A model generated the notes under the pieces. It worked only from the letters and a program-made list of their open reading frames with translations, had not been told where the DNA came from and ran no database searches. The position numbers and the translations under genes were made by a program. A stretch of DNA of 64,000 nucleotides from Urechidicola croceus (GTDB lineage Bacteria; Bacteroidota; Bacteroidia; Flavobacteriales; Flavobacteriaceae): NCBI RefSeq assembly GCF_001761325.1, contig NZ_CP017478.1, forward strand, positions 1,447,501-1,511,500, written 5' to 3'. Positions within the stretch are counted from its first letter, which is position 1; every line of letters starts with the position of its first letter. Shown one piece after another: positions 52,621 to 53,418 of the stretch.

Positions 52621-52660
52621 ACTTTAACTTTTAAAAAGTTTAAAAAAAAATGAAATTATT

Positions 52661-52690
52661 GCGTCTTTTTAAACTTTATTTCGTCTAATA
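52661..52690 (+). promoter_or_regulatory. Possible ECF-type promoter of the cysteine-rich peptide
   Basis: GCGTC (52661-52665) and TCGTC followed by TAATATAT (52681-52692) lie exactly 20 bases apart. CGTC is the usual -10 core of ECF sigma promoters, and no good TAnnTTTG is present. Weak evidence, but it fits a peptide gene placed directly before an ECF sigma gene. Confidence 0.4.
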
Positions 52691-52715
52691 TATAAACAAC
52701 ATAAATTTAAATATT

Positions 52716-52817
52716 ATGAAAAATACAGAATGTACATGTAATTGTGGTCCTTGTAAAGAAGGAAATTGTAAAAATTGCACTTGTGAATCTTGCACATGTT
52801 CAAATTGTAATTGTTAG
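52716..52817 (+). CDS. Metallothionein-like 11-cysteine peptide
   Basis: 33 residues, 11 of them Cys (positions 6, 8, 10, 13, 18, 21, 23, 26, 28, 31, 33) in repeated CxC and CxxC pairs: MKNTECTCNCGPCKEGNCKN then CTCESCTCSNCNC. No hydrophobic core is possible; it should fold around soft metals such as Cu(I), Zn or Cd. I cannot assign it to a named metallothionein family. It directly precedes the SigZ-type sigma factor gene, whose product also ends in a Cys-rich tail. Confidence 0.75.
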   Translation: MKNTECTCNCGPCKEGNCKNCTCESCTCSNCNC

Positions 52818-52824
52818 TTATTAC

Positions 52825-52861
52825 AACGTCAGTTCGACTAAAATAAAATCGAACTGACGTT
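52825..52861 (+). repeat. 13-bp-arm inverted repeat between the Cys-rich peptide and the sigma gene
   Basis: AACGTCAGTTCGA (52825-52837) and its exact complement (52849-52861) around an 11-base A-rich loop. It ends 14 bases before the sigma factor ATG. There is no T-run directly after it, so it may act as a partial terminator or as a hairpin controlling translation. Confidence 0.75.
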
Positions 52862-52875
52862 AACAAAATTTTAAT

Positions 52876-53418
52876 ATGCAAACAAGTCAAATTTGGAATG
52901 AGTTTTCCGATTCATTAAAAAGATATATCAATAGTAGGGTTCACAATCAAACTGTTACTGATGATATATTGCAAGAAACTTTTGTCAAAATTCATCTTAA
53001 TATTAATAAAATAAAACAACAAGAAAGTCTTAAATCTTGGATTTATACTATTGCACACAATACAATGATAGACTATTTCAAAAAGCAATCTAAAATTGTA
53101 AATAAAACTATTAATCTTCAAGAAAACTTTGATGAAAACTTTGAGCACAGTCATAAAGACTGTTTATTACCATTAATAAATAACTTACCTCAAATATATC
53201 GCGAAGCAATAATTCTAAGCGAAATAAACGGTTTAAAACAAGCAGAGGTTGCCAAAATATTAGACATTTCACTTTCAGGAACAAAATCTAGAATTCAACG
53301 TGGACGAACATTATTAAAGCAAGGATTTATGGACTGTTGTGATTTTAAACTTAATGAGTCTGGTCATTTAACCGGAACAACAAATACAAAAGAAGATTGT
53401 AAAGTTTGTAATAACTAA
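52876..53418 (+). CDS. ECF RNA polymerase sigma factor, SigZ type
   Basis: 180 residues. Region 2 (DDILQETFVKIHLNINKI, SLKSWIYTIAHNTMIDYFKK) and region 4 (LPQIYREAIILSEINGLKQAEVAKILDISLSGTKSRIQRGR) are clear. The C-terminal tail (DCCDFKLNESGHL...EDCKVCNN) carries four cysteines, as in the SigZ group, and may sense metal or redox state. No anti-sigma gene follows; the next gene is convergent. Confidence 0.92.
   Translation: MQTSQIWNEFSDSLKRYINSRVHNQTVTDDILQETFVKIHLNINKIKQQESLKSWIYTIAHNTMIDYFKKQSKIVNKTINLQENFDENFEHSHKDCLLPLINNLPQIYREAIILSEINGLKQAEVAKILDISLSGTKSRIQRGRTLLKQGFMDCCDFKLNESGHLTGTTNTKEDCKVCNN

Follow-up and report, generated by a model that had tools for sequence, protein, structure and literature searches.

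A metallothionein-like peptide and a cysteine-tailed SigZ sigma factor form a conserved unit in Flavobacteriaceae

Results

Organization of the locus

The locus occupies positions 52660–53418 of the window, the 64,000-nucleotide stretch of DNA that was analyzed. All of its parts lie on the forward strand, in the order promoter, 33-residue peptide with 11 cysteines, hairpin with a 13-bp stem, and ECF sigma factor of the SigZ family. The putative promoter combines a -35 element, TGCGTCTTTTT (52660–52670; TGCATCTTTTT in relatives), with a -10 element, CGTCTAATA (52682–52690; CGTCTATTA in relatives). The metallothionein-like peptide, MT1 (52716–52817), has the cysteine pattern C.C.C..C....C..C.C..C.C..C.C. 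Folding places a terminator- or attenuator-like hairpin at 52825–52861, with a perfect 13-bp stem and an 11-base loop. The sigZ gene (52876–53418) encodes 180 residues with the Sigma70_r2 and Sigma70_r4_2 domains; the Cys96 codon (53161–53163) falls between sigma2 and sigma4, and the tail cysteines C154, C155, C175, and C178 are encoded within 53335–53409. The unit is preceded by a 107-residue ORF with no Pfam match, and sigZ is followed by an MFS gene on the opposite strand. Pfam and NCBIfam searches of the window neighbors recognized no anti-sigma gene next to sigZ; a partner might be unlinked. The elements claimed in the preliminary description (peptide, hairpin, sigma factor with four terminal cysteines, CGTC sequences, and no adjoining anti-sigma gene) are all present. 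The peptide, the promoter, the position of the hairpin, and the sigma factor recur together in tens of genomes, and therefore their arrangement is not due to chance.

The cysteine-rich peptide

Cysteine makes up 11 of the 33 residues of MT1, and Phe, Trp, Tyr, and His are absent. Cysteines spaced as C.C and C..C, within a short peptide free of aromatic residues, are typical of metal clusters. Bacterial metallothioneins, SmtA being one, are short and cysteine-dense like MT1, but MT1 matched no family in Pfam or NCBIfam at E 1 and no PDB sequence at E 10. All 11 cysteines are invariant across 23 aligned MT1 peptides, the window's included. Among 9020 pairwise comparisons of the cysteine codons (TGT or TGC) of 41 loci, 3530 show a difference, always a synonymous one. 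The regular expression that collected these loci demands the cysteines and so partly imposes their invariance. The reading of the peptide as a spurious ORF was rejected because the peptide is conserved while its codons change synonymously.

The MT1 profile matches 48 of 299 genomes of Flavobacteriaceae and 5 of 395 genomes sampled across the phylum, all 5 of which belong to the same family. An adjoining SigZ accompanies the peptide in 36 of the 48 family genomes, counting one decayed pair in genome G188. The other 12 have no SigZ match at E 1e-18, and three of these SigZ-less peptides hold only 8, 9, or 10 cysteines. Orphan MT1-type peptides in two genomes of the same genus without a SigZ match (L146 and L156) lie upstream of genes that, judged by eye, encode a 212-residue carbonic-anhydrase-like protein and a 604-residue SulP-like transporter.

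In the accessible text of PMC10141476, the name SigZ does not occur and metallothionein appears only as MymT, which is controlled by the repressor RicR. The MT1 gene is instead linked to a sigma factor.

The peptide and the sigma factor are conserved as a pair

The window sigma factor scores 178.1 bits against TIGR02959 (SigZ), above the cut-off of 168.65, which assigns it to that family. Its score against NF007215 is 194.8, below the cut-off of 212 and thus outside that family, although the match spans residues 1–178 of 180 and includes the tail. The protein ends in CC-X19-C-X2-C (C154, C155, C175, and C178), and its fifth cysteine is C96. The preliminary description had pointed to this cysteine tail, and comparison across relatives backs its conservation: among 52 aligned sigma factors of the MT1/MT2 clade described below, there is no variation at C96, C154, C155, or C175, and at least 90% keep C178. 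Four tail cysteines are found in 40 of 41 MT1 rows, and in the remaining row, L098, a contig end truncates the sigma factor.

SigZ homologues were found in 75 of the 299 family genomes (E 1e-18). A search of the 299 genomes gave 29 next-best SigZ loci after the window (L018–L046, E to 5.2e-50), and all 29 have a cysteine-rich ORF of this type immediately ahead of sigZ. ORFs were accepted if they began with ATG and had 20 residues or more, at least 4 cysteines, and more than 12% cysteine; the cysteine pattern was not imposed. The reading of the locus as one unit, for which the preliminary description had named linkage to sigZ in relatives as one of its tests, is borne out by this conserved pair. 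The pair in G188 (L159) consists of a frameshifted peptide and a sigZ with stops in the same genome, and shows the joint decay of both genes.

No common downstream operon partner was seen at the loci. Metal-transport genes were not recognized at MT1 and MT2 loci among neighbors that were read by eye and in part searched. An AsnC/Lrp-like gene, identified by eye, recurs near MT1 loci and also near orphan peptides (L002, L004, L019, L023–L026, L028, L034, L036, L039, L040, L042, L043, L046, L148, and L155). This recurring neighbor suggests a single ancestral site at which sigZ is present or absent.

A single promoter precedes the unit

The preliminary description drew attention to CGTC boxes ahead of the peptide, and both are there (52662–52665 and 52682–52685). 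They are parts of one promoter: the first CGTC sits in TGCGTC, a variant of the TGCATC -35 conserved in relatives, and the second is the -10. Two independent CGTC operators were rejected because the alignment gives a single promoter with a TGCRTC -35 element. The bipartite motif TGCATCTTTTT-N11-CGTCTATTA, or a close variant, lies upstream of the unit in 34 distinct regions including the window's. GCATCTT is present in 32 of them, the exceptions being the window itself (TGCGTC) and L021 (TGAATC). TGCRTC and CGTC are separated by 16 bases in 39 aligned MT1 promoters, a spacing set by the regular expression, which also demands the G..TC and GTCT letters, so that their invariance is partly imposed. 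The run of five T lies outside the letters that the expression demands and is conserved in 37 to 39 of these 39 promoters, and two T positions following GTCT are kept in 38.

In the window genome, a single contig of 3.43 Mb, the motif is matched exactly at the unit and nowhere else. Allowing up to two mismatches gives 61 matches in all compared to 42 in the control. A wider regulon in this genome was rejected on the single exact match and on a two-mismatch total little above chance. The exact motif occurs in 29 of the 299 genomes, once in each: 26 copies are at the unit (the window and the decayed G188 included) and 3 are elsewhere, compared to 2 in the control. The scan at up to one mismatch covered 32 of the 36 family genomes that carry the unit (all but G057, G066, G079, and G188) and found 42 sites, 30 at the unit and 12 others, compared to 13 in the control. 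At this threshold a unit site was not found in G045 and G121. Where the peptide occurs in a genome lacking a SigZ match, the promoter is absent (0 of 12). Scanning for CGTC followed by a loose tail yielded no information.

Within the limits of these scans, the detectable regulon consists of little more than the unit. G113, a genome of the same genus, offers a credible extension: another copy of the promoter, differing by one mismatch, precedes a DUF3703 gene (E 3.3e-32; L215:3371–3750) immediately ahead of the unit. This is the one site read among the 12 non-unit sites. The preliminary description had proposed a self-activating circuit. A dedicated promoter, near-unique to the unit, is consistent with activation by SigZ, and autoactivation itself is a prediction from this arrangement.

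A hairpin separates the peptide from sigZ

The hairpin arms at 52825–52837 and 52849–52861 form 13 of 13 pairs with a predicted energy of -18.4 kcal/mol (z -5.7), and 0 of 200 shuffles were as stable. Spacers of at least 25 bases are present at 56 of the 58 peptide-bearing loci, some of them near-copies. A stem of at least 8 bp is found in 53 of these 56 spacers, and 54 fold better than shuffles with z < -2. The stem sequences vary widely, and an apical TTTAGTAA...TACTAAA is common to one subset. The median distance from the end of the stem to the sigma start is 15 bases, and at least 5 U fall within the next 8 bases after the stem in 27 of 56 spacers. The recurrence of the hairpin, its distance from the sigma start, and the U-runs favor a terminator or attenuator. 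The window hairpin is stable, but its U-run is not immediate, and therefore this role is putative there. The preliminary description suggested that the hairpin could limit translation of the sigma factor. The hairpin does lie between the two genes, but a terminator or attenuator that would set a high peptide-to-sigma ratio is likelier than translational control.

The motif TAnnTTTG, which we take to be the Bacteroidetes housekeeping -7 motif, occurs in the final 30 bases before sigZ in 8 of 56 spacers. The mean of mononucleotide shuffles is 2.0, and 1 in 1000 shuffles reaches this count; a separate housekeeping promoter may therefore serve some sigZ genes. The motif is absent from the last 30 bases of 48 of 56 spacers, the window's included, and the data weakly support a housekeeping promoter for sigZ.

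Peptide types and gene neighbors in the SigZ family

The 93 SigZ rows comprise 41 with MT1, 15 with MT2, 2 with a third, CC-rich type, and 35 without a peptide. The last group includes the distant L007–L009 and the decayed G188 row (L159). L001 and L005, which duplicate L019 and L041, were left out. MT2 is a second peptide type of 37 to 41 residues with 14 cysteines; its 15 rows are 14 labeled as such plus L174, which was first labeled MT3 and is MT2-like on reading, and the L164 peptide has 14 cysteines. The third type, of 58–59 residues with CC pairs, is found at L205 and L209, before a cysteine-tailed SigZ and behind TGCATCATTTTT...CGTCT. The sigma tree contains 90 rows (L009, L098, and L159 are not in it). 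MT1 appears on it as one change with support 99/92, and the MT1 and MT2 branches join at 98/86. Only L172 lacks a peptide among the 56 rows of the joined clade.

MT2 promoters read TGTATC-N17-GTCT, where MT1 promoters have TGCATC. Promoter letters and sigma clade thus vary together, and this covariation supports recognition of the promoter by SigZ. At up to one mismatch, the MT2 promoter is found at the unit in 15 of 15 MT2 genomes and at 8 other sites, compared to 3 in the control. Four of these 8, all of which were read, overlap an opposite-strand ORF (L233, L237, L244, and L225), one is within an ORF (L242), and one is at an ORF start (L241). The remaining sites (L226 and L240, position 1501, same genus) are promoter-like and precede a small lipoprotein-like gene by about 180 bases; this gene is a possible second SigZ target. 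The L225 site (position 1501, one mismatch) is 55 bases before an ECF-like sigma gene that is followed by an anti-sigma-like gene, both judged by eye.

Other SigZ genes adjoin metal(loid)-related genes. An arsenite methyltransferase beside SigZ exceeds the NF008823 cut-off in 3 of 3 cases tested (L169, L170, and L182), and an ArsP_1 permease was confirmed in 2 of 2 full-length proteins tested (L189 and L197). Pfam searches were run on 70-residue fragments and repeated with full-length proteins for some neighbors; the ArsP_1 match at L007, on a Cloacimonadota contig, is by such a fragment. L197 and L204 share an identical gene order of SigZ, a 324-residue permease (tested for ArsP_1 in L197 only), a 120-residue cysteine-containing membrane-like protein, and a small lipoprotein-like gene.

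SigZ lies directly upstream of a PhzF-like gene in 10 rows (L184, L185, L190–L194, L196, L198, and L207), and its tail has one cysteine in 9 of them and none in the other. Thus, not every SigZ is a cysteine-tail sensor, and the tail sensor of the PhzF-linked clade seems to have been lost or changed. A TGCGTC...CGTC promoter-like site stands directly before sigZ in L170, L182, and L183, as does TGCATC...CGTC in L208; where counted, the elements of these sites are 15 bases apart instead of 16. Sites of this kind directly before sigZ favor autoregulation in the SigZ family.

Discussion

The peptide and sigZ are a real conserved unit. Very probably its own sigma factor directs its transcription, and the unit probably responds to thiophilic metal or metalloid ions. 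Published accounts describe CorE and CorE2 of Myxococcus xanthus, in which a linker CXC and a C-terminal cysteine domain are both needed, and OrbS of Burkholderia cenocepacia, in which four tail cysteines sense Fe(II) (PMC8999054, PMC3107203, PMC9023288). As far as these descriptions go, CorE, CorE2, and the window SigZ are all ECF factors without an anti-sigma, with a cysteine-rich C-terminal extension and linker cysteine(s), and the CorE2 tail starts with CC as the SigZ tail does. Compared by description, the tail spacing differs (CC-X19-C-X2-C in SigZ, CC-X3-C-X2-C-X-C in CorE2), and the published accounts also set the linkers apart, with one cysteine (Cys96) in SigZ and CXC in CorE and CorE2. 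The window SigZ therefore has the cysteine-rich C-terminal domain and no adjoining anti-sigma gene, but it lacks the linker CXC and so is not filed as a CorE member. CorE is described as having several targets, copA probably among them, and as only partially autoregulated, whereas the detectable regulon of the window SigZ comprises little besides the unit, with its metallothionein-like peptide. OrbS resembles the window SigZ in carrying four C-terminal cysteines as an on-board metal sensor, a function that is predicted for SigZ; it differs, in the text available, in being inhibited by Fe(II), in driving siderophore genes, and in its C-X2-C-X3-C-X5-C spacing.

PMC9239204 states that ECF238, the group that received the CorE-like factors (former ECF44), is "also called SigZ", and according to PMC8999054 only the former ECF44 members of ECF238 retain the CXC motif. 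A CorE2-like window sigma factor without CXC fits these two statements. The equation of ECF238 with SigZ lends more support to the sensor reading and leaves less novelty in the sensor part. The preliminary description regarded a self-activating circuit with a metal-sensing tail and a buffering peptide as new. On-board cysteine metal sensors are already described in CorE, CorE2, and OrbS, and SigZ has been placed in the ECF group of CorE2. The novelty therefore lies in the partner peptide, which resembles a metallothionein, in a regulon of nearly a single operon, and in how widely the unit occurs in the family. In the open-access literature searched, some of it accessible in part and most subscription papers being outside its scope, we found no role of SigZ in a metal response, no other link between SigZ and metal, and no sigma-linked metallothionein in the phylum.

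The best explanation, which we hold with moderate confidence, is a stress operon that works without an anti-sigma factor and in which a self-transcribed metal(loid) sensor drives a metallothionein-like buffer. SigZ would have little or no activity until Cys96 and the tail CC...C..C bind a thiophilic metal or metalloid ion. By analogy with CorE and CorE2, the metal-bound factor would then join RNA polymerase and read the single promoter TGCRTCTTTTT-N11-CGTC ahead of the peptide. Most transcripts would end at the hairpin and yield abundant peptide mRNA, and a minority would read through into sigZ, which would create a damped positive loop. The 11-cysteine peptide would bind metal and buffer the cytoplasm, and by taking metal off SigZ it could also turn the sigma factor off. 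In this scheme we infer the binding of metal, its sensing and the direction of the response, the autoactivation, the read-through, and the feedback.

Cysteines by themselves fail to separate metal from redox sensing, and the tail might sense thiol or redox stress (disulfide, electrophile, or low-molecular-weight thiol state) with the peptide as a sacrificial thiol buffer. PIG-L deacetylase, aminotransferase, and PhzF-like genes adjoin some SigZ relatives, as such a role would allow. We nevertheless judge it unlikely: the spacing of the MT1 cysteines is that of metal clusters, arsenite methyltransferase and ArsP genes lie beside members of the same SigZ family, and the known cysteine-tailed ECF sigma factors respond to metal. 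A different arrangement would dispense with self-activation, the hairpin being a full terminator, sigZ being constitutive from its own housekeeping promoter, and only the peptide depending on SigZ. The widespread hairpins, the U-runs, and the excess of TAnnTTTG near the sigma start over shuffles speak for it. It is rather unlikely in view of the spacers that lack the motif, the window's among them, the short median distance from hairpin to start codon, and the promoters of the SigZ kind that stand directly before sigZ in L170, L182, L183, and L208.

The peptide could also be mainly a regulator, a metal-stripping negative-feedback partner in place of an anti-sigma factor with little role in resistance. 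The strict pairing, the near single-operon regulon, and the lack of a recognized anti-sigma gene agree with this, as do the three cysteine-rich peptide types that each accompany a cysteine-tailed SigZ. The relatives of the peptide kept in the 12 genomes without a SigZ match would need an independent role, for example metal buffering, and they make a mainly regulatory peptide quite improbable, although three of these 12 have incomplete cysteine sets. That the small ORF is untranslated and that a structured leader RNA alone matters is scarcely credible, since the eleven cysteines are kept across loci despite synonymous codon variation. The self-transcribed sensor that drives a buffer remains our preferred explanation. 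A broader proposal, possible but tentative, is that SigZ factors in Flavobacteriaceae are modular metal(loid) sensors of the one-component type that need no anti-sigma factor, and that each has a promoter dialect of its own and a dedicated detoxification cassette (three metallothionein-like types, an arsenite methyltransferase, and an ArsP-type permease). The window branch would then have a regulon that is roughly its own operon, and its metallothionein would be both a buffer and an off-switch that replaces an anti-sigma factor by stripping metal from the tail.

If the explanation is correct, new types of metallothionein-like peptides would be added to those known, and the minimal design of one promoter, one peptide, and one sigma factor would make a compact metal biosensor and a very small self-contained metal response. 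SigZ would gain a clear and testable job, in which one sigma factor is the sensor, the switch, and the near-sole regulator of its own operon.
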